Source: Armatimonadota bacterium (GTDB lineage: Bacteria > Armatimonadota > Fimbriimonadia > Fimbriimonadales > Fimbriimonadaceae). From it: 64,000 nucleotides of DNA. The notes under the pieces were generated by a model. That model was not told the origin of the DNA. It was given only the letters and a program-made list of their open reading frames with translations, and made no database searches. Both the position numbers and the translations under genes were made by a program. The DNA lies in the NCBI GenBank assembly GCA_016125185.1, contig WGMG01000002.1:62001-126000 (forward strand), read 5' to 3'. Positions 4,849-64,000 of the stretch are shown piece after piece (the first letter of the stretch is position 1; each line of letters opens with the position of its first letter).

Positions 4849-5787
4849 TTAGATCTGGGTGGCCAGGGCTTCGGGAAAGAGTTGTTCGGTGGTCGCTTTG
4901 CCACCGATGGCCGTTCCGTCGGTGAGGGCGGTTGCGGCCCCCGCGGCGAGACCCCAGCGAAGGGCTTCCTCGGCAGACTTCCCTTCCACCAACGCCCACA
5001 GCATTCCCGCGATCATCGAGTCGCCGCTCCCGATGGTACTTTTCGGATGGACTTTCGGGCTCTTGCCAAGGAACGTTCCTTCTTGGCAAGCCATCACGGC
5101 TCCCTTCTCTCCCCGGCTGATGACGACATAGCGGTGCCCGCCGCCGATCTTGGCGTAGAGTTCCTTTGCTGCGGCGATGACGTCCTCGTCGGATTCGATC
5201 GGACGCCCGAGAAGGCGACCAGCCTCCTTGCTATTGGGCTTGATGAAGTCGGGATCAGCCTTCAGGCCCTCGGCGAGCACGGCTCCGTCGGCATCGATGA
5301 CCACCTTGGCACCCGCCTTTTTGGCGATGAGGGCAAGTTGGTAGAAGGCGTCCGTGCTCAAGCCGGGCGGTAAGGAGCCTCCGAATGAGACCCAAGTCGC
5401 CTTGGTCGCCAGAATCTCTACCGACTCCACCAGCGCTTTCCATTCGTCGTCGGAGATGGTCGGGCCCTTTTGATTGAAAGTGGTGGGCGGATCGTCGGAA
5501 TTGTCTTCCACCGAGAAGTTGGTGCGGGTCTCGCCCGCGATCTGCACGAAGCCATCTTCGACCCCTTCTTCTTCCATCACGTGGCGGATGAAGGCGGCAG
5601 TGGCTCCACCGAGGAAGCCGGTCGCGATGGTTTCGCCGCCGAGATGGGCATAGACACGCGAGGTGTTGAGGCCCTTCCCGCCAGCGTCCTTTTCGGAAAC
5701 GAGCACGCGGTTGGTGTCGTTCGGCAGGAACTTGTCCACCCTCAGCAGGTAGTCGACGCAGGGGTTGAGGGTGACAGTGAGGACCAT
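4849..5787 (-). CDS. PfkB-family sugar kinase, probable 1-phosphofructokinase
   Basis: 312 residues, normal for the FruK/LacC/PfkB branch of the ribokinase superfamily. The protein opens with MVLTVTLNPCVDYLLRVD, typical of FruK/PfkB. It has the substrate loop GGKGLNTSRV (about 37-46) and the C-terminal anion-hole/catalytic-base motif GSGDSMIAGML. It phosphorylates a phosphorylated sugar: fructose-1-P, fructose-6-P or tagatose-6-P cannot be separated by eye. No PTS genes are adjacent. It is followed upstream by an inverted repeat and then pfkA on the same strand, so two phosphofructokinase-type enzymes sit together. Confidence 0.85.
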   Translation of the reverse strand: MVLTVTLNPCVDYLLRVDKFLPNDTNRVLVSEKDAGGKGLNTSRVYAHLGGETIATGFLGGATAAFIRHVMEEEGVEDGFVQIAGETRTNFSVEDNSDDPPTTFNQKGPTISDDEWKALVESVEILATKATWVSFGGSLPPGLSTDAFYQLALIAKKAGAKVVIDADGAVLAEGLKADPDFIKPNSKEAGRLLGRPIESDEDVIAAAKELYAKIGGGHRYVVISRGEKGAVMACQEGTFLGKSPKVHPKSTIGSGDSMIAGMLWALVEGKSAEEALRWGLAAGAATALTDGTAIGGKATTEQLFPEALATQI

Positions 5788-5801
5788 CTGTTTAGTTTAC
5801 A

Positions 5802-5874
5802 GTTTGGAGTTGGAAGTTGGAAGTTAGGAGATCAGAGAGAGCCACGATAGGTCCGCCGACCGCCAACTCCAAAC
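5802..5874. repeat. Intergenic inverted repeat (12-base arms)
   Basis: GTTTGGAGTTGG (5802-5813) is the exact reverse complement of CCAACTCCAAAC (5863-5874). The flanks carry tandem GGAAGTTGG copies. The same GGAGTTGG unit recurs in the gaps near 10789 and 11755, so this looks like a dispersed intergenic repeat family and not a gene-specific terminator. Confidence 0.6.
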
Positions 5875-5885
5875 TCCCAACTAAG

Positions 5886-6860
5886 TTACTGCGCCATGAC
5901 TTCGGCCAGGAGGAGCTTTTCGGGATCGATGGTGCGTTCGGTGCTGAGGACGTAGGTCAGTGGGTGCGAGACCAGCTTACTGCCATCGACACCGGCCATT
6001 TCGCCTCGGAATCCGCTCAGGAGTCGGTTGGTGGCCAGGGCACTGAGGCGGAGGGCTAGGACGCGATCGAAGACGGTCGGGCTTCCACCCCGCTGGAGGT
6101 GTCCCAGTACGAGGTATCGGCAGTCGAAGCCGGTGTTCTTCTCGATGAACAGCTTGACGTCGCTGGCTCGCGCGGCACCTTCGGCGACGACGATGATCGA
6201 GCTTTTCTTTCCTCGATCCGCCGCCGAGCGCAGGTTCTTGCAGATATCCAGAAGCGAGTATGGGACTTCGGGGATCAGGATGGCCTCTGCGCCGCCAGCT
6301 AAACCTGACTCGATCGCGATAAATCCGTTGCGACGGCCCATGACCTCGACCACGAAGACGCGCTCGTGGGAGTAGGCGGTGTCGCGCAGGCGGTCGATCG
6401 CCTCGACGGAAATGTTCACGGCGGTGTCGAAGCCGATAGAGAAGTCGGTGCCGGAGATGTCGTTGTCGATGGAGCCAGGCACGCCCATGACCGGAAATTG
6501 GAATTCTTCTTGCAGCTTTAGCGCACCGGTCAGCGAGCCGTCGCCGCCGATGACCACCAGCCCTTCAACTTTATTCTTGCGAAGGTTATCGAGAGCTTTG
6601 ACTCGGCCGTCGGGTGTACGGAATTCGGCGCTTCGGGCCGAGCGAAGGATGGTGCCGCCGCGGTCGATGATGCCGCCCACAACCTTCGAGTCCATCACTT
6701 GAGACTCATCGTTGATGACGCCTTCCCAGCCGTGCGCGAAGCCGATGATCTCGGTGTTGCGGTAGAGCGCGGCTCGAACCACGCCCCGAATCGCCGCATT
6801 CATTCCAGGCGCGTCCCCTCCGCTCGTAATCACACCAATTCGCTTCACGTACCAGTTCAT
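5886..6860 (-). CDS. pfkA: ATP-dependent 6-phosphofructokinase
   Basis: Committed step of glycolysis: fructose-6-P plus ATP to fructose-1,6-bisphosphate. Motifs: TSGGDAPGMNAAIRG (ATP loop), VIGGDGSLTGA (the GGDGS form indicates ATP and not PPi use), PGSIDNDISGTDFSIGFDTA (catalytic Asp), EVMGRRNG, and GHLQRGGSPTVFDR. The ATG at 6860 is preferred over the longer frame to 6977, which would run into the divergent gene. A GTG at 6848 gives the even more family-like MKRIGVITSGGD. The start is 1 base from the divergent CBS-DUF1385 start, so promoters must lie inside coding sequence or one start is further in. Confidence 0.93.
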   Translation of the reverse strand: MNWYVKRIGVITSGGDAPGMNAAIRGVVRAALYRNTEIIGFAHGWEGVINDESQVMDSKVVGGIIDRGGTILRSARSAEFRTPDGRVKALDNLRKNKVEGLVVIGGDGSLTGALKLQEEFQFPVMGVPGSIDNDISGTDFSIGFDTAVNISVEAIDRLRDTAYSHERVFVVEVMGRRNGFIAIESGLAGGAEAILIPEVPYSLLDICKNLRSAADRGKKSSIIVVAEGAARASDVKLFIEKNTGFDCRYLVLGHLQRGGSPTVFDRVLALRLSALATNRLLSGFRGEMAGVDGSKLVSHPLTYVLSTERTIDPEKLLLAEVMAQ

Positions 6861-55976: not shown

Positions 55977-57209
55977 CTATGAGTCGTCGCCGCCGCCCGA
56001 CGAGAGCGAGGCAATAACCTTCACCAGCGGAAGGAACATCGAGATGACGATGAAGCCAACGACAAAGCCCAGACTGACGATCATGATCGGCTCCAGAGCC
56101 GCCGTCAGCGAGGCGAGTGCCGCTTCGACTTCGTTCTCGTAGAAGTCGGCGATTTTCTGGAGCATGAAGTCCAGCGAACCGGATTCTTCACCGACACCGA
56201 TCATGTGAACGACCATCGGCGGGAACAGCTTCGATTCTTCGAGCGGGTCGCCGATTCGGTCTCCTTCACGGATTCGGGCTCGAGCTTCGAGGATCGCATC
56301 CGACATGATCGTGTTACCGACGGTACCGGCGACGGTCTCCATCGCCTGCAGGATCGGAACACCCGAGGTCAGAAGCGTACCCATCGTTCGGCTGAAGCGC
56401 GCCATACAGATTTTGTGGTGCAGCTTGCCGAAGACCGGAACTTTCAGCTTGACGCGGTCCATGACGCGTCGTCCAAACCTTGTCGAGACGAACAGTCGGT
56501 GCGCAATGATCAGGATGACCAGCGAGACAACGACGATCCAGCCCTTATAGACCAACACGTTCGAGATGTCGATCAGGAACTTGGTCGGCGCGGGAAGGTC
56601 GTCGGCCTTCAGACCGAGGTCGACCAGAATCGCCGCCCATTGCGGAACGAACCAATAGACGAGGAAAAGCGTGATGCCCGACGCCATGACGGCAACGAGG
56701 ACCGGATACGTGAGCGCCGACTTGACCTTTCGGCGAAGTTCCACGTCCTTTTCAAGGAAGTGGCTGAGTCGCTGGAGAGATTCTTCCAAGACACCGCCGA
56801 CTTCACCAGCTTTGATAAGACCGATGAAGAGCGAGCTAAATGCCTTGGGGTGTCGCTGCATCGCTCGGCTGAGCGATTCGCCCGCTTCGACGCGGGTACC
56901 AAGGTCGCCGATGATCTTCTTCAGCTTCTTGTTCTGCGTCTGATTACCCAGAACGTCGAGACAGCGGACGAGCGAAACGCCCGCGTCGACCATCGTCGAA
57001 AACTGGCGACACCAGACCGAAAGGTCGGTGAGCTTAACCTTACCGGGGCTCTTTGTCTTCGGGCTTTTCGCCTTGATCATGGTGATCTCGGTGATGGTGA
57101 AGCCCTGCTCTTCAAAGCGCTTCCTCAGGAGCTCTTCGCTTTCGGCATCGGCGGTACCCTTCTGGATCGCGCCGACGGCATCCTTAAATGTGTAGCTGAA
57201 GATAGGCAT
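55977..57209 (-). CDS. pilC: Type IV pilus inner-membrane platform protein PilC
   Basis: 410 residues, the normal GspF/PilC length. N-terminal FSYTFKDAVGAIQKGTADA, two repeated GspF domains (about 70-195 and 270-395), with LSVWCRQFSTMVDAGVSLVR and FSRTMGTLLTSGVPILQAME as the paired motifs. Hydrophobic helices near 170-190, 215-235 and 380-400. It couples the PilB/PilT motors to the pilus base. It lies 12 bases after pilT. Confidence 0.95.
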   Translation of the reverse strand: MPIFSYTFKDAVGAIQKGTADAESEELLRKRFEEQGFTITEITMIKAKSPKTKSPGKVKLTDLSVWCRQFSTMVDAGVSLVRCLDVLGNQTQNKKLKKIIGDLGTRVEAGESLSRAMQRHPKAFSSLFIGLIKAGEVGGVLEESLQRLSHFLEKDVELRRKVKSALTYPVLVAVMASGITLFLVYWFVPQWAAILVDLGLKADDLPAPTKFLIDISNVLVYKGWIVVVSLVILIIAHRLFVSTRFGRRVMDRVKLKVPVFGKLHHKICMARFSRTMGTLLTSGVPILQAMETVAGTVGNTIMSDAILEARARIREGDRIGDPLEESKLFPPMVVHMIGVGEESGSLDFMLQKIADFYENEVEAALASLTAALEPIMIVSLGFVVGFIVISMFLPLVKVIASLSSGGGDDS

Positions 57210-57221
57210 TTCTTTCTCCTA

Positions 57222-58604
57222 TTATCGTCTGATTTGTTGGTTTCCTGGACCTTGTCCGGCAGTCGGGCCGCCGCCACCAGCGGTGGCAAGCATCTTTTTG
57301 AGTTCTTCGACGTTCGTACAACGCGACATGATGTCTTCGAGCGTGACCCAACCCTTGAGGTAGAGGTCTCGAAGGCATTGATCCATCGTGAACATTCCCA
57401 TGTTCGCCGACGTTTGGATCATCGATGTAATCTGGTGCGACTTCGCTTCGCGGATGAGGTTGCGGATAGCGGGCGAAGCGACCATGATCTCGTTGGCAGG
57501 CACACGTCCCTTGCCGCTGGCGTGAGCCAGAAGCTGTTGGGAAATGATCGCCACGAGGTTGTTCGAAAGCTGAACACGAATCTGTTCCTGCTGCCCCGGA
57601 GGGAAGACGTCGATCATTCGGTCAACGCTTTCTGCCGCGTTGTTGGTGTGCAGGGTTGCGAAGACGAGGTGTCCCGTTTCCGCTGCGGTAATCGCGAGCG
57701 AAATCGTTTCCACGTCACGCATTTCACCAACGAGCAGGATATCCGGGTCTTCACGAAGGCTTGCGCGAAGTGCGTTCGAGAAGCTCTTCGTGTCCATTCC
57801 GAGTTCGCGTTGCTGGATGACGCTCAACTTGTGTTCGTGCAGATATTCGATCGGGTCTTCGATCGTAATAATGTGGTGCGCGAAGTTCATGTTGATGTGG
57901 TTGATCATCGCCGCCAGAGACGTCGATTTTCCAGAACCGGTCGGGCCGGTAACCAGAATCAAACCACGAGGCTTTTCGCAAAGCGACTTCAGCATCAGAG
58001 GAAGCTTCAGTTCCTCAACTGTCGGAATCTTGGACGAGATCAGTCGGAACGCTGCCGCACAAGCACCGCGCTCGCGGTACATGTTGACGCGGAATCGGGC
58101 TCGCGCCAACGGTCCGCCCGGAACTCGCTGATGGAACGGAATCGGCAGAGAGTACGAGAAGTCCAACTCAAACGTCGTTTCAAACCGTTGAATCTGATCG
58201 TCGGAAATGATTTCATACAGCATTCGCTGGATGTTTTCCGGGATGAAAGTCTCGTAGTTGAGGCGCTTGATCTTACCGTCGTGGCGCACCACGGGCGGCG
58301 ACTGTGCCGCGATATGCAGGTCCGAGCAGTTCATATCGACGACGATGTTCAACAACTCGTCGATGTGGAGGTCGTCGACCGTCTTGCGCGGTCCTAGCGG
58401 CTTTTCGTCATTGGGGATTCCGCTGATCGTCTCCAAGCGCTCTTTCCAAGCGTCGGGATTTCCGGCGCCCACCATCTGAGCGGCACCGGGTTGCGGACGA
58501 GGCGCCCCGCCCATCGGCGGTGCTTGAGGGGGCGGCGCGCCGCCCATTGGCGGCTGAGGCGGAGGGGCTCCGCCCGGATTCTGTCGCGTAGGATCGTTCT
58601 GCAT
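57222..58604 (-). CDS. pilT: Pilus retraction ATPase PilT
   Basis: 460 residues, about 100 more than usual owing to a Pro/Gly/Ala N-terminus (GGAPPPQPPMGGAPPP...) and a Gly tail. Core: LLNIVVDMNCSDLHIAAQSP, Walker A GPTGSGKST, Asp box IEDPIEYLH, Walker B LLVGEMRDVET, His box GHLVFATLHTNNA. The PilT AIRNLIRE retraction motif appears as PAIRNLIREAKSHQ. It depolymerises the pilus. Positioned between pilB and pilC. Confidence 0.95.
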   Translation of the reverse strand: MQNDPTRQNPGGAPPPQPPMGGAPPPQAPPMGGAPRPQPGAAQMVGAGNPDAWKERLETISGIPNDEKPLGPRKTVDDLHIDELLNIVVDMNCSDLHIAAQSPPVVRHDGKIKRLNYETFIPENIQRMLYEIISDDQIQRFETTFELDFSYSLPIPFHQRVPGGPLARARFRVNMYRERGACAAAFRLISSKIPTVEELKLPLMLKSLCEKPRGLILVTGPTGSGKSTSLAAMINHINMNFAHHIITIEDPIEYLHEHKLSVIQQRELGMDTKSFSNALRASLREDPDILLVGEMRDVETISLAITAAETGHLVFATLHTNNAAESVDRMIDVFPPGQQEQIRVQLSNNLVAIISQQLLAHASGKGRVPANEIMVASPAIRNLIREAKSHQITSMIQTSANMGMFTMDQCLRDLYLKGWVTLEDIMSRCTNVEELKKMLATAGGGGPTAGQGPGNQQIRR

Positions 58605-58626: not shown

Positions 58627-60387
58627 CTAGAAACCTGCGGTAAAGACAACACGCATGACCTCTTCTGGTGTCGTAACACCTTGCAACACCTTGTAAAGGC
58701 CGTCCTCGCGAAGCTCCTTCATACCGCCTGCTTTTGCCGCCTCCTTAATATCGTTTAGAGGGGCGCGGCGGACAACAAGTTCCGCGATTTCCGCGTTCAT
58801 GATCATTAATTCATGGAAACCAGTTCGGCCCTTGTAACCGGTCATTCGGTTGCTTTCGGCCGGAATGCCTCGGTACAGGGTCACCAATTCGTCCGGATCG
58901 GTCACGTTGAAGCCAAAGCGGCGAAGGTCGATCTGCGGCACTTCGTATCGCTCCTTGTGCTCAGTGTCGATACGTCGGCCAAGTCGCTGGGCGAGAACGC
59001 CGATAACCGTTGCCGAGATCAAGTAGGGCTCAACGCCCATGTCGATCATACGAAGCGTAGCCGACGGAGCGTCGTTCGTGTGAAGCGTCGAAAGAACCAA
59101 GTGGCCCGTCAGCGATGCTTCAATCGCGATTTCTGCCGTTTCAAGGTCACGCATTTCACCGACCATGATGATGTCCGGGTCTTGTCGCAGATAAGCGCGA
59201 AGCGCGGTCGCGAACGTCAGACCCGCCTTTCGGTTCATCTGGACCTGAGCGATACCGTTGAGCTGGTACTCAATCGGGTCTTCAGCCGTGATGATGTTGA
59301 CCGTAACCGTGTTGAGCTTGTTGAGAACCGAATACTGCGTCGTGGTCTTGCCCGAACCCGTAGGACCGGTGCAAAGGAACATACCGTTCGGCTGGCTGAC
59401 CAACTCTTCGATCTTGATCTGGTTCTCTTCCGTAAAGCCGATTTTCTCGAGACCGATCATAACCGAAGTCTTATCGAGAATTCGCATAACGATCTTCTCG
59501 CCGAACGGCGTGGGGATCGAGCTAACGCGAAGGTCGATTTCCTTGTTCTGGTGCTTGACCTCGATACGGCCGTCCTGCGGAATTCGTCGCTCGGCGATGT
59601 TCATGTCCGCCATGATCTTGTAGCGGCTGATGAGTGGAGCCATGAGGTTTCGTGGAACCGTCATCGCCTCCATAAGGACACCGTCGATTCGATACCGGAC
59701 ACGGATCGATCGGGGGCCGGGCTCGATGTGAATATCCGAAGCTCGATCGGCAATCGCCTGCTGAATAAGCGCGCTGGCCAACTTGATGATCGGAGCCGCA
59801 TCGGCGCCTGCGGCGTCGTCCTCTCGGCCCTCGTCCGTCATTTCGGCGTCGCGACCTTGCTTAACGCCCGCTTCGGCCATGATTCGGGCGAAGTCGGCAG
59901 CCGGAGCCTTCGAAGCAGTTGGGGTGGGGTCGGCGGCGGCCTGAACAACCGTGCCCCCTCCGTAATTCTTTCGAATCGCATCTTCGATCGCGCCTGGCAC
60001 AGCAAGGACGGGCACCACACGGCAACCCGACGCAATGCGGAAATCGTCGATGGCCGCCAAATTGTTCGGATTCGTCATCGCGATCCAAAGCGTCTGACCA
60101 TCCTTTCGAACCGGAATCGCGTTGTGATTCTTCACGATGCGCTCGGGGACGACGTTGAGCGCGCTCGACTCGATCGTCATGCGATCGAGATCCGCAAATC
60201 CGAGGCCGGCCTCTTGGGCCTTGGCCTGTAAAACCTCGCGTTCGCCGCAAAATCCGAGTTGGATTATCGCCTTATCGACGGACGTGTTGGTCTGTTTGGC
60301 AACCTTAATGGCCTCATCGGCCTGTTCCTTCTTCAGAAAGCCCTTCTGAATCAGAAACTCAATCATTGACACACGGGGCATAGCCAT
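58627..60387 (-). CDS. pilB: Pilus extension ATPase PilB
   Basis: 586 residues. N1/MshE-N-like domain about 8-140; linker; N2 domain about 194-305 (GADAAPIIKLASALIQQAI, ASDIHIEPG, VRYRIDGVLMEAM, RIPQDGRI); Walker A GPTGSGKTTT; Asp box; Walker B IIMVGEMRDLET; His box GHLVLSTLHTNDAPSA; then MTGYKGRTGFHELM. The zinc tetracysteine of GspE/PilB is absent: the segments read RRIDTEHKER and RGIPAESNRMTGYKGR, and the whole protein has only three Cys. Start ATG 60387 with GAGAG upstream. Followed closely by pilT and pilC. Confidence 0.94.
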   Translation of the reverse strand: MAMPRVSMIEFLIQKGFLKKEQADEAIKVAKQTNTSVDKAIIQLGFCGEREVLQAKAQEAGLGFADLDRMTIESSALNVVPERIVKNHNAIPVRKDGQTLWIAMTNPNNLAAIDDFRIASGCRVVPVLAVPGAIEDAIRKNYGGGTVVQAAADPTPTASKAPAADFARIMAEAGVKQGRDAEMTDEGREDDAAGADAAPIIKLASALIQQAIADRASDIHIEPGPRSIRVRYRIDGVLMEAMTVPRNLMAPLISRYKIMADMNIAERRIPQDGRIEVKHQNKEIDLRVSSIPTPFGEKIVMRILDKTSVMIGLEKIGFTEENQIKIEELVSQPNGMFLCTGPTGSGKTTTQYSVLNKLNTVTVNIITAEDPIEYQLNGIAQVQMNRKAGLTFATALRAYLRQDPDIIMVGEMRDLETAEIAIEASLTGHLVLSTLHTNDAPSATLRMIDMGVEPYLISATVIGVLAQRLGRRIDTEHKERYEVPQIDLRRFGFNVTDPDELVTLYRGIPAESNRMTGYKGRTGFHELMIMNAEIAELVVRRAPLNDIKEAAKAGGMKELREDGLYKVLQGVTTPEEVMRVVFTAGF

Positions 60388-60601: not shown

Positions 60602-61180
60602 TCACGACTCGTAGTCGAGGACGATCCCGACCATGTGGTCGCCGGTGGGGTCGTAGTGGTCGATCGAGGCGTAGGCAGTTCTCTCCTTGGCCTCAAGGTA
60701 GAGCAGGTTTTCGGGTCCGTCATCGGAGGTGCAGCGGCCGTAGTTGAAGGCATAAGGGTAGGCCCGCACGATCGGCTTGATCAAGCTTGCCGGGATCGTC
60801 AACGCGACCACTCGAAAGCCGGATATCGTATACACGGCGGTTAGGCGGTCTACCGAATTTTCAGTTGCTATGCCGGCCGATTGCAACTCCTTGCGAAATT
60901 CAGCCATCGATCCTTCAGCCCCGTCCCCTTTGCGAATTCGGTCTTCGTACTCTTGAAGGGTTTCCACTCGGTGCAATTCGAGTTCCGGAATACCTGTCCA
61001 GAGATCGATCCGCGAGGCTTGGTCGGCCATTGCTTGAAGAAGGATCGCGCGATTCAGCTTCAGGATGGGGGCCGCATGAGGACTTTTCGTTGGATTTTGT
61101 GAATCCTCGTCCATCCGTTGGAATTTTGGTTCGGGACGATATTTGCCAGCTCCGAGAAACCAGTCAAGCAGGTGTGACAT
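60602..61180 (-). CDS. PilB N2-domain-like protein without ATPase, copy C (192 aa)
   Basis: Segments HAAPILKLNRAILLQAMADQ (35-54) and ASRIDLW (55-61) match PilB DAAPIIKLASALIQQAIADR and ASDIHIE. VYTISGFRVVALTIPASLI (117-135) matches VRYRIDGVLMEAMTVPRNLM. There is no Walker A/B or His box. The C-terminal 45 residues (FNYGRC..., TAYASIDHYDPTGDH, VGIVLDYES) are nearly shared with the 241-aa protein at 61616. An insert of about 50 residues (62-112) splits the domain. The start overlaps the previous gene by 17 bases. Third gene of the trio, 214 bases upstream of pilB. A regulator or adaptor of the PilB hexamer is inferred; this is not a described family to my knowledge. Confidence 0.72.
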   Translation of the reverse strand: MSHLLDWFLGAGKYRPEPKFQRMDEDSQNPTKSPHAAPILKLNRAILLQAMADQASRIDLWTGIPELELHRVETLQEYEDRIRKGDGAEGSMAEFRKELQSAGIATENSVDRLTAVYTISGFRVVALTIPASLIKPIVRAYPYAFNYGRCTSDDGPENLLYLEAKERTAYASIDHYDPTGDHMVGIVLDYES

Positions 61181-61619
61181 CGGTTACCTCCAATCGCACA
61201 TAGAGTTCGGGTTTCAGTTGAAACGCCTCGACTTTTACGTCCAGAATTTTCTCTTTAGACTCCAGCTTGAACCAGTTTCGAGGAGCGTCGAGGCTGGTGA
61301 AGTTGTCAACATTGCCAAGCACGCGAATTTTGGCCGCGACCGAAATTCCGTGCTCGGACGGCAGTTGGCCAACTTCTCGCTCTTCGCCTGCGGAGACATA
61401 GAACAAGGAAGTCGTGTCTTGCGAGGTTGGTTTCAATATTGCAACCGAAGACCCCATTTCGACTGCATTCAAGCAGATGTTTTCGATGATCCCCGTCGAC
61501 AGCATCATGTTGTAGAAACCTCGCTCAGCGTCCTGCTCCCGCGAAGTCGTTTCCGCTACCTCTGTCGGCGAAGCGGCAATACCGCGAAGCCAGTTTCGAA
61601 TCGAAGACATTTGCATCAT
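61164..61619 (-). CDS. PilB N2-domain-like protein without ATPase, copy B (151 aa)
   Basis: Second gene of the trio. Residues about 38-148 can be laid along PilB 200-305 with the same helix-strand order: TGIIENICLNAVEMGSSVAI (helix plus strand), SLFYVSAGEEREVGQLP, AKIRVLGNVDNFTSLDAPRN aligned with SRYKIMADMNIAERRIPQDG, WFKLESKEKILDVKVEAF aligned with RIEVKHQNKEIDLRVSSI, and LYVRLEVTDV aligned with KIVMRILD. Identity is low, so this assignment is weaker than for the other two. No nucleotide-binding motif. It overlaps the upstream gene by 4 bases (ATGATG/TGA). Confidence 0.62.
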   Translation of the reverse strand: MMQMSSIRNWLRGIAASPTEVAETTSREQDAERGFYNMMLSTGIIENICLNAVEMGSSVAILKPTSQDTTSLFYVSAGEEREVGQLPSEHGISVAAKIRVLGNVDNFTSLDAPRNWFKLESKEKILDVKVEAFQLKPELYVRLEVTDVTPA

Positions 61620-62341
61620 GATTCGTACTCGAGGACGATACCAACCTTATGGTCGTCGGCGGGATCGTACTGGTCGATGGAGGCATATGCCCCTCTTCCC
61701 CTTACCTCACAGTACAGTAGGTTGATGGGTCGCACGTAAGATGCACAACGTTGGTAATTAAAGTCGTATTGGTAGATTCGAACCAACCGCTCACTGAGAT
61801 TGGATGGGATTCGCATCGCTTCCATTCGAAGCGTGGCGATCGTGTAGACCACCTGGAGCCTATCCCCGCGAGGAACCTCGACAGCTCCCTGCTTGACTGC
61901 GGCTTCGGCCAAAATGCGCGCAAACTTGGCGAAGTTCGCTGATCGTTGGGGGTTCTGTGCGTTCATCGCCCGATCCCATGCTTCCTCCTCCTCCTTCGCG
62001 ATCATTTCCGGTGGTTTCTCGGGTCCTACCCTTTCCGGTTCGGGAGCATTGGCATAGATGTCGATCCTTGTCGCGCTATCCATTATCGCTTGCCCGATGA
62101 TAGCGGAGGCAAGCTTACATATGGGAGCCGCGTCGGCTCCACTAGTTCTCATAGCCAACTCATCAACGGGGCACCGATGGTTCCGATAGGGCCATAGGGT
62201 TTGATCACCAATGAGCCAATCGAGCGCCGCCGTTAGAGGCGCAGGGAAGGTGGTGTCGATCCCCTGCTCATCAAGGCTCGCTAGCGCCAAGTTGTATGGC
62301 ATAGCAATGCACCTGTCGTAGAGCCTGGCGACGGCATTCAT
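61616..62341 (-). CDS. PilB N2-domain-like protein without ATPase, copy A (241 aa)
   Basis: First gene of the trio. GADAAPICKLASAIIGQAIM (68-87) is almost the PilB stretch at 194-213; by hand 19 of 26 positions are identical through Ile93. FARILAEAAVKQG (140-152) matches PilB FARIMAEAGVKQG (166-178). VVYTIATLRMEAMRIPSNL (164-182) matches PilB 230-248. No Walker motifs or His box. The N-terminal 60 residues are unrecognised. The PilB pieces occur in a different order from PilB. Start ATG 62341 follows AGGATTGAATCTCG. Likely co-transcribed with copies B and C and perhaps pilB. Confidence 0.75.
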   Translation of the reverse strand: MNAVARLYDRCIAMPYNLALASLDEQGIDTTFPAPLTAALDWLIGDQTLWPYRNHRCPVDELAMRTSGADAAPICKLASAIIGQAIMDSATRIDIYANAPEPERVGPEKPPEMIAKEEEEAWDRAMNAQNPQRSANFAKFARILAEAAVKQGAVEVPRGDRLQVVYTIATLRMEAMRIPSNLSERLVRIYQYDFNYQRCASYVRPINLLYCEVRGRGAYASIDQYDPADDHKVGIVLEYES

Positions 62342-62546
62342 CGAGATTCAATCCTATTATCGGATAAATCGAGTCCGCGATTGCACAGATTTCAGGGGCA
62401 GCCCCTAAAGAAGGGGCCCCTGCATAAATACCGGTATTCGAAATTCTTAACTGGAAAGAAGGGAGATTGACCAAGCTAGGTTCAAAATGCACCTAACATG
62501 TACAGCAATTCTTAAGACCAACGGACGACTGGCGTGGTTCCTCGCC
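62342..62546. other. Intergenic region with hairpin and palindrome
   Basis: No gene seen. It holds a bulged hairpin (62393-62422; CAGGGG pairs with CCCCTG, inner CCCC with GGGG, loop TAAAGAA) and the perfect palindrome ATACCGGTAT (62428-62437). Both lie in the leader of the PilB-like trio on minus, where they could be regulatory. Confidence 0.4.
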
Positions 62547-62575
62547 TTGCCTAAGAATACTTTCTTTGGTAGATT
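62547..62575 (+). promoter_or_regulatory. Promoter for the PEP-CTERM gene
   Basis: TTGCCT (62547-62552), 17-base spacer, TAGATT (62570-62575), 42 bases before ATG 62618. Each box matches the sigma-70 consensus at 4 of 6. Confidence 0.45.
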
Positions 62576-62617
62576 GAATCTGTGGGCTGGCTAACAGTCC
62601 ATTTTTTTTGGAGGCTT

Positions 62618-63289
62618 ATGAAAAAGTACTTTGCGCTATTCATTCTTACCGGGATCGCAACGGCGGCAAACGCCCAGCAGATCTTGACCAGAGGAGACCT
62701 AAACTCGATCCTGTCCACCTCGACCACCGACGATTTTGAAACCTTCAACGTCGCCGACCAGGACGCAACGACCCTTTTCGGCAATTCAGTTTTGGATTCG
62801 ACAACAACTTACGACAGTCAAGGGCCCAACTTGGTTCACTCCGGCGCATTCTATGTCGATTCCAGTGAGTATGATTTTCAGTGGAATGGCGACCATTACT
62901 TTGGCCTGAATTCCAAGACGCTGGTAGCTAATGGCACTTCAGGGGGCGTAGAGATCGTCTACAACACGCCGGTCGGAGCCATGGGCGTTGACGCCATGGC
63001 CTACTCGGGCTATGGCTACGCGGGCACCATGAAGGTCTACAGTGGAGTGAACCTGCTTGGCACGGTCAACTTTTCGCTCAGCGGCACCGCCGGAGAAACG
63101 GTCTTCCTCGGTTGGCAGAGCACGCAGTTGATCACGAGCGTTTCGATTTCTTCTCCAGCCTATTCTTGGAGCCCGATCATCGATAACCACACCTACGGCA
63201 GCGTCGGGACCGTTCCTGAACCGGCTTCGATGGCGGTTCTTGGGCTCGGCGCCTTGGCTCTCGTTCGCCGACGACGAACCCAGAAGTAA
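62618..63289 (+). CDS. PEP-CTERM exported protein
   Basis: 223 residues from ATG 62618 (GGAGG 3 bases upstream; the longer frame from 62582 hides the signal). Signal peptide MKKYFALFILTGIATAANAQ. The body is a beta-rich domain with DDFETFNVADQ and SGGVEIVYNTPVGAMGVDAM. C-terminal sorting signal: VPEPASMAVLGLGALALV then RRRRTQK, i.e. Pro-Glu-Pro, hydrophobic helix, basic tail, processed by exosortase. This implies an exosortase and exopolysaccharide system elsewhere in the genome. Ligand unknown. Confidence 0.9.
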   Translation: MKKYFALFILTGIATAANAQQILTRGDLNSILSTSTTDDFETFNVADQDATTLFGNSVLDSTTTYDSQGPNLVHSGAFYVDSSEYDFQWNGDHYFGLNSKTLVANGTSGGVEIVYNTPVGAMGVDAMAYSGYGYAGTMKVYSGVNLLGTVNFSLSGTAGETVFLGWQSTQLITSVSISSPAYSWSPIIDNHTYGSVGTVPEPASMAVLGLGALALVRRRRTQK

Positions 63290-63302
63290 GGCAAGCACCG
63301 AC

Positions 63303-63340
63303 AAAAAGGGGCTCCCTCGAATCGAAGGAGCCCCTTTTTT
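63303..63340. terminator. Bidirectional terminator between PEP-CTERM gene and tdh
   Basis: AAAAAGGGGCTCC (63303-63315) / GGAGCCCCTTTTTT (63327-63340), perfect stem with an 11-base loop and A/T runs on both sides, shared by the convergent genes. Confidence 0.93.
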
Positions 63341-63345
63341 CGCGT

Positions 63346-64000
63346 TTATTCGAAGGTGAAGACGACTTTGCCGGCCTTGCCCGCCTTCATCAGTTCCATC
63401 GCTTCTTGGAACTGCGTGAAATGCATCACATGCGTCACAACCGGATCGAGCTTCAGCTTTCCACTCCCCAGCAGATCCGACATCTGATCCCAGGTCTCCC
63501 AAAGGCGTCGCCCCACGATGGCGTGGACGTCGATTCCCTTGAAGATCAAGTCGTTGATGGGTAATGTCTGGTCGTTGTTGGCATAGACCCCCAACAGCGA
63601 AATTCGTCCGCCCGGACGGACCACTTGACACGCCAACGATAGCTGGGTCGGATGCCCGGACATCTCCAGCACGCCATCCACGCCCTCGGGGTGAAGTTTG
63701 GCAAGTTCGCAGACCACGTCTTCTTGAACCGGATTGAACACCCGATCCGCCCCGACTTGCCGCGCGATATCCGCCCGATATTCGCTAATCTCGGTGGCAT
63801 AAACCGCCTTCGCCCCCATCGCCTTGCAAACGGAAACCGCGAATTGGCCGATCGGTCCCATGCCCGTAATCAGGATCACGCAACCCTCGACTGGCCCAGA
63901 AAGGGCCGTGTGCACGGCGTTGCCCAACGCGTCCTGGAACGACGCGATCAGCGGCGACACCGTTTTCGGCGTCGGCCGTGCGTTTTCCCATGGGATAACG
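63346..64000 (-). CDS. tdh: L-threonine 3-dehydrogenase (5' end outside window)
   Basis: A zinc-dependent medium-chain dehydrogenase that oxidises threonine to 2-amino-3-ketobutyrate. The frame is open to the window edge (VIPWENARPTPKTVSPL), so the start at 63960 is not real; the N-terminal catalytic zinc half is missing. Visible: FQDALGNAVHTAL (TDH signature), Rossmann loop VILITGMGPIGQFAV, TEISEYRADIARQVGADRV, GVLEMSGHP, GGRISLLGVYAN, IVGRRLWETWDQMSDLL. Sorbitol-dehydrogenase relatives are possible, but the WEN and DALGNAVHTAL pieces favour Tdh. Confidence 0.9.
   Translation of the reverse strand, partial: VIPWENARPTPKTVSPLIASFQDALGNAVHTALSGPVEGCVILITGMGPIGQFAVSVCKAMGAKAVYATEISEYRADIARQVGADRVFNPVQEDVVCELAKLHPEGVDGVLEMSGHPTQLSLACQVVRPGGRISLLGVYANNDQTLPINDLIFKGIDVHAIVGRRLWETWDQMSDLLGSGKLKLDPVVTHVMHFTQFQEAMELMKAGKAGKVVFTFE

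Follow-up and report, generated by a model that had tools for sequence, protein, structure and literature searches.

Stand-alone N2 domains related to those of PilB-type motors are encoded upstream of pilB in a Fimbriimonadaceae genome

Three overlapping genes upstream of pilB in a Fimbriimonadaceae genome, here called A, B and C, almost certainly encode N2 domains of the kind found in pilus extension motors, each made as a small protein without any ATPase domain, as judged from profile comparisons and AlphaFold models. These proteins belong to a wider family of "solo" N2 proteins, appear to derive from two different parent motors and have lost most of the arginines through which an N2 domain acts on its neighbour. 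We tentatively favour a role as inactive decoys of the pilus motor.

The pilB locus and the N2 domains of A, B and C

All three genes lie on the minus strand of the window (the whole 64,000-nucleotide stretch of DNA that was analysed), where A overlaps B by 4 bases and B overlaps C by 17, with the start of B inside the 3' end of A. A GGAGG ribosome-binding site stands just 5' of the start of C, and a gap of 214 bases separates the block from the downstream pilB gene (Table 1). The coordinates agree exactly with an earlier note on this DNA, which had described three co-directional genes with overlaps of these lengths upstream of pilB. Scans for promoters, terminators and RNA folds upstream of A gave nothing above shuffled sequences and, because no promoter was recognised, co-expression of A-B-C with pilB is treated here as an assumption. 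The part of the window upstream of A (62341-63999) holds a gene for a PEP-CTERM-type secreted protein (62618-63289), where two relatives (L025 and L026) have a ferredoxin-NADP-reductase-like gene upstream of B and pilB.

Table 1 Features of the pilB locus and further solo N2 genes
Feature	Position	Strand	Description
gene A	61616..62341	-	241 aa, class-A solo N2: N-terminal extension, then N2 split by a helical insert
A, N2 helix 1 and strand 1 (ADAAPICKLASAIIGQAIMDSATRIDIY)	62054..62137	-	close to PilB helix 1
A, relocated PilB N1-N2 linker motif (AKFARILAEAAVKQG)	61886..61930	-	within the insert between N2 strands 1 and 2
A, rest of N2	61619..61864	-	strands 2-3, helix 2, strands 4-6
gene B	61164..61619	-	151 aa, class-B solo N2, kin to PilB2 N2
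B, N2 domain (residues 37-151)	61167..61511	-	helix, three strands, helix, three strands
gene C	60602..61180	-	192 aa, class-A solo N2, paralogue of A
pilB	58627..60387	-	586 aa, MshEN N1 and T2SSE; inferred parent of class-A N2
PilB, N2 domain (residues 189-306)	59470..59823	-	
PilB, N1-N2 linker motif ADFARIMAEAGVKQG (residues 164-178)	59854..59898	-	
pilT	57222..58604	-	downstream of pilB, same cluster; GPTGSGK, PilT-type (from translation)
pilC	55977..57209	-	platform protein, downstream, same cluster (from translation)
A18	L054:6571-7089		class A, one further genome, not beside pilB
B24	L025:4488-4973		class B, directly upstream of pilB
B11	L026:6152-6619		class B, directly upstream of pilB
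B23	L055:3911-4339		class B, not beside pilB
class D	L103, L104, L136-L142		nine genomes, none adjoining pilB

A and C, which are 40% identical (E 9e-40), are paralogues, and both carry the matches to the N2 domain of PilB that the earlier note had recognised. To the first helix of the PilB N2, A is 65% identical (15 of 23 positions, PilB residues 199-221) and C 43%, and the two proteins score 35.0 and 21.5 bits, respectively, against a PilB-N2 profile, on which 500 shuffles of each reached at most 8.7 (A) and 4.3 (C). B had been taken for a match to PilB at low identity; it is indeed an N2 relative, but it gives no hit to PilB and matches instead the N2 domain of PilB2, a further motor of the same genome, scoring 29.4 bits on a PilB2-N2 profile where shuffles scored at most 5.5. 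Profile-profile comparison with the N2 domains of ATPases yielded a probability of 97.6% (E 4e-12) for a class-A profile made from A, C and a third relative, and of 95.5% (E 1.5e-8) for a class-B profile.

Structural models point the same way. The AlphaFold2 model of B, generated from an alignment of four solo proteins only and with no ATPase sequence, has a pLDDT of about 90 across most of residues 37-151, which fold as a helix, three strands, a helix and three strands, and the first 25 ranks of a Foldseek search of the PDB with this model were all PilB, PilF, GspE or BfpD. The model of A, also built without ATPase sequences, is weak (mean pLDDT 52), and its Foldseek ranking, in which the top 20 were all PilB, PilF or GspE, is used as supporting evidence only; it has a helix at residues 71-87 and a strand at 92-96, and its elements follow the N2 order except for two added helices that separate strand 1 from strand 2. 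For both A and B, PilB/GspE structures rank first.

Neither Walker A, Walker B nor a His box is visible in the translations of A, B and C, as had been noted from the first, an Asp box is likewise absent, and none of the three has a match to the RecA-like ATPase domain (T2SSE) in Pfam or NCBIfam. They belong to no Pfam, NCBIfam or PADLOC family, B having a sub-threshold Pfam match to DUF1304, and Pfam finds the N1 (MshEN) domain in PilB only, without a match in A, B or C. The three proteins therefore share with the N2 domain of PilB, GspE and PilF (the first part of Pfam PF00437, T2SSE) the same fold and element order, a similar helix 1 (API.KL..I.QA) and, in A, the VP.NL..P motif; they differ from these motors in being separate small proteins with no ATPase or N1 domain, in having largely lost the N2 arginines and, in A and C, in possessing a helical insert. 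Searches of the open-access literature turned up no account of N2 proteins of this solo kind.

Two parent motors and a relocated linker

The window genome carries genes for three or more PilB-like ATPases: the PilB of the operon, PilB2 and a third of 583 aa. Nearly every Fimbriimonadaceae genome searched has PilB2 (L027:1486-2751, on contig C6), a GspE/PilB-like protein of about 421-425 aa with no N1 domain, encoded apart from the pilB-pilT-pilC cluster; the third PilB-like gene (L028:3554-5305) is followed by another PilT-like gene (5362-6681).

When scored against the N2 profiles of PilB and PilB2, the solo proteins of classes A and B fall into two groups. A, C and their relative A18 reach 35.0, 21.5 and 31.9 bits on the PilB-N2 profile and at most 5.6 on that of PilB2, while B, B24, B11 and B23 reach 29.4, 19.9, 19.1 and 17.1 bits on the PilB2-N2 profile and at most 6.1 on that of PilB. 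BLAST aligns B with PilB2 (33% over 72 aa, E 5e-9) and finds no match of B to PilB, and the best BLAST match among the ATPases of the window genome follows the same division by parent in seven of seven class A/B solos. By the profile scores and the BLAST division, A/C and B therefore come from different motors, with A and C, on sequence grounds, descending from the N2 domain of PilB and B from that of PilB2. B is thus found adjoining pilB, away from its presumed parent. PilB2, whose N2 domain is the nearest relative of B, differs from it in being an entire motor, Walker A and CxxC motifs included, whereas B is an N2 domain only.

In addition, A contains a copy of the helix that links N1 to N2 in PilB (FARILAEAAVKQG), identical at 12 of 15 positions to PilB residues 164-178 and positioned after N2 helix 1, in the insert between strands 1 and 2; 0 of 1000 shuffles scored as well. 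C retains a weak trace of this motif, and A18 lacks it. The order of elements seen in A could have come about if linker and N2 were duplicated in tandem and an internal stretch was then lost. In the PilB proteins of close relatives, the motif NFAxIMAEAGVKQG (window 59854-59898) is conserved within an otherwise variable N1-N2 linker.

A fast-evolving family within the Fimbriimonadaceae

Sixteen solo N2 genes in three classes (A, B and D) were identified in 14 of 85 Fimbriimonadaceae genomes. Searches of the phylum placed solo N2 genes only within this family among the matches listed, a limit under which weak members may be missed; class B was searched at the level of the family and through a peptide scan of a genome-contig collection. 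Class-D proteins combine a common N-terminal helical region of ~100 residues with an N2-like domain, and their profile matches both that of the ATPase N2 (95.2%, E 2.7e-8) and that of class A (94.8%). Among the matches listed for 291 genomes of the phylum, those to class D over its full length came from Fimbriimonadaceae only, and in no genome was class D seen together with class A or B.

A and C had at first appeared unique, an impression that came from plain BLAST of A against the family, which returned A, C and ATPases only, and that was corrected when profiles found A18 and class D. A search for related loci in the genome-contig collection with A alone found nothing, and a scan of the same collection with B, of low sensitivity, recovered nothing beyond three loci known before, which carry the label Fimbriimonas or Armatimonadetes. 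Short matches near contig ends in G005 and G130, and weak matches in G064 and G061 whose flagged frames held no N2-like sequence, were left out of the count. An amphipathic N-terminal helix was considered as a feature common to all solos and was significant in B and B24 only.

B orthologues are found directly upstream of pilB in three genomes, counting that of the window, and the other two, close relatives, lack A and C; the earlier note's expectation of conserved synteny with pilB is borne out to this extent. The modelled fold is not an unrelated one, homologues occur in related genomes and the frames are undisrupted. A18, B23 and all nine class-D genes lie in unrelated neighbourhoods, away from pilB, and a solo gene is often absent even from closely related genomes. 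For class D, two genomes (G020 and G017) have in common the arrangement sigma factor, D gene, FAD-linked oxidase.

Since most solo relatives are found away from pilus genes, a role outside the pilus is a serious rival, although we consider it somewhat unlikely. The N2 fold would then have been co-opted as a general, small protein- or ligand-binding module, and adjacency to pilB would record where copies arose or landed. Besides the eleven relatives in unrelated neighbourhoods (nine of class D, one of class A and one of class B), the loss of motor-specific motifs and the fast divergence would fit such a role; it does not readily explain why B should stand directly upstream of pilB in three genomes though PilB2 is encoded elsewhere, or why PilB-like elements persist, namely helix 1 and, for classes A and D, the IPxNLxxP motif.

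The solo genes are constrained, yet change about ten times faster than PilB. Among B orthologues, pS is 0.75-0.80 and pN 0.43-0.49, and between A and C the values are 0.77 and 0.39, compared with a pN of 0.05-0.06 and a pS of 0.60-0.68 for pilB in the same species; synonymous sites are saturated, so these figures do not yield an exact pN/pS ratio. In A, B and C alike, the actual reading frame fits the codon usage of the neighbouring genes better than the other frames do. With open frames and a pN of about half pS, the three are intact proteins under selection and not pseudogenes. It is accordingly very unlikely that they are functionless, decaying fragments of duplicated motor genes, as the loss of catalytic and interface residues, the scattered presence and absence of the genes and a dN about ten times that of pilB might suggest: against decay stand not only the pN of about half pS and the open frames but also gene-like codon usage, the 4- and 17-base overlaps, a single architecture held constant between solos of only 22-43% identity and, in class D, an N-terminal region common to nine genomes.

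Rapid evolution would also be expected of proteins of phage or mobile-element origin that block the pilus against superinfection, and phage proteins that inhibit PilB do exist, namely Aqs1 and Tip (PMC11656802). This origin is highly improbable for A, B and C, given that a search of 50,697 phage records gave no match for B or C, that classes A and B have no conserved-peptide match in viral contigs, that PADLOC gives no match, and that the source of the domains appears to be the host's own motors. A, B and C resemble Aqs1 and Tip, which act on PilB, in being small proteins for which such an action is proposed; they differ in being N2 domains encoded on the chromosome, for which the searches gave no phage relatives, where Aqs1 and Tip are helical phage proteins.

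Candidate decoys of the pilus motor

In the motor, the N2 domain of one chain packs on the C-terminal domain of the next over about 1600 A2, and the ring is assembled from such N2-CTD units (PMC5424180). Six residues (D218, R231, R233, R274, R287 and R302 in PilB numbering) are invariant or nearly so in the N2 domains of 36 ATPases. Of the seven solos of classes A and B, every one has D218, R231 and R274 replaced or gapped; for R233 and R287 this holds in six, and for R302 in five. The alignment between solo and ATPase N2 domains is least sure at the last two, C-terminal positions (R287 and R302). By alignment register, R274, R287 and R302 correspond to R257, R271 and R286 of Geobacter PilB, residues that touch ATP or the Asp box on the far side of the subunit interface (PMC5424180). 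Judged from these alignments, most of the N2 arginines through which one subunit acts on the ATP of its neighbour are gone from the solos; a few single arginines persist. The N2 fold and its helix 1 are retained, and in classes A and D helix 2 still begins with IPxNLxxP. A model of the PulE-PulF complex has helix 2 of N2 and the loop that follows touching the platform protein (PMC10790770); the PQDGRI motif of the loop between helix 2 and strand 4, part of this modelled contact, is lost in the solos, leaving the loop altered.

For the function of A, B and C, the earlier note had suggested that they could join or cap the PilB ring, compete for N2 contacts, or bind PilC or PilM. The reading that we favour, tentatively and at somewhat less than even probability, is that the solos are dead N2 decoys or adaptors which, placed on the motor ring or on PilC, limit pilus extension. 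A, B and C would be made in step with pilB from one locus and would each take a site meant for the motor's own N2 domain, candidate sites being the C-terminal domain of a PilB or PilB2 subunit at an open edge of the ring and the cytoplasmic domain of PilC. There, a free N2 domain without its arginines might stall ring closure, ATP hydrolysis or docking on the platform, and extension could be limited or gated motor by motor, with A and C acting on PilB and B on PilB2. On this view, the members of the wider solo family would regulate the pilus motor as fast-evolving accessory proteins.

The two parents, the position of B upstream of pilB in three genomes, the sequence constraint, the N2 identity, the lost arginines and the usual contacts of N2 with the next subunit and, in the PulE-PulF model, with the platform all count for the decoy reading; the solos found away from pilB, the loss of PQDGRI, the patchy presence and the negative promoter scan count against it. 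It is possible, though on balance doubtful, that N2 domains were excised repeatedly from at least two Fimbriimonadaceae motors to give a family of decoys, of which the A-B-C set targets two motors beside pilB.

The same three proteins could instead associate with one another or with PilB as structural subunits, forming a mixed N2 ring or cap that helps to dock the motor on PilC or PilM and promotes extension. One face of the motor ring is made up of N2 domains (PMC5424180), and three tightly overlapping genes suggest joint production. We regard this as unlikely, as two close relatives carry B alone, and we know of no N2-N2 assembly.

The nearest functional parallel to the decoy reading is CpiA of Acinetobacter baylyi, a small host protein that binds and inhibits one of two extension motors and for which no homologue of known function is reported (PMC8213720). 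CpiA and A-C alike are small host proteins encoded in genomes with more than one extension motor, and an action on a motor is proposed for A-C; binding and inhibition have been measured for CpiA, whereas A-C are motor-derived and known here from sequence. Few inhibitors of PilB are known, and none is described as motor-derived in the papers cited here. If the decoy reading is true, a natural N2-only protein binding to PilB or PilC would offer, as a small soluble protein, a means of testing what N2 does in ring assembly and in the coupling of motor and platform, and would show how several extension motors could be controlled one by one within a single bacterium.
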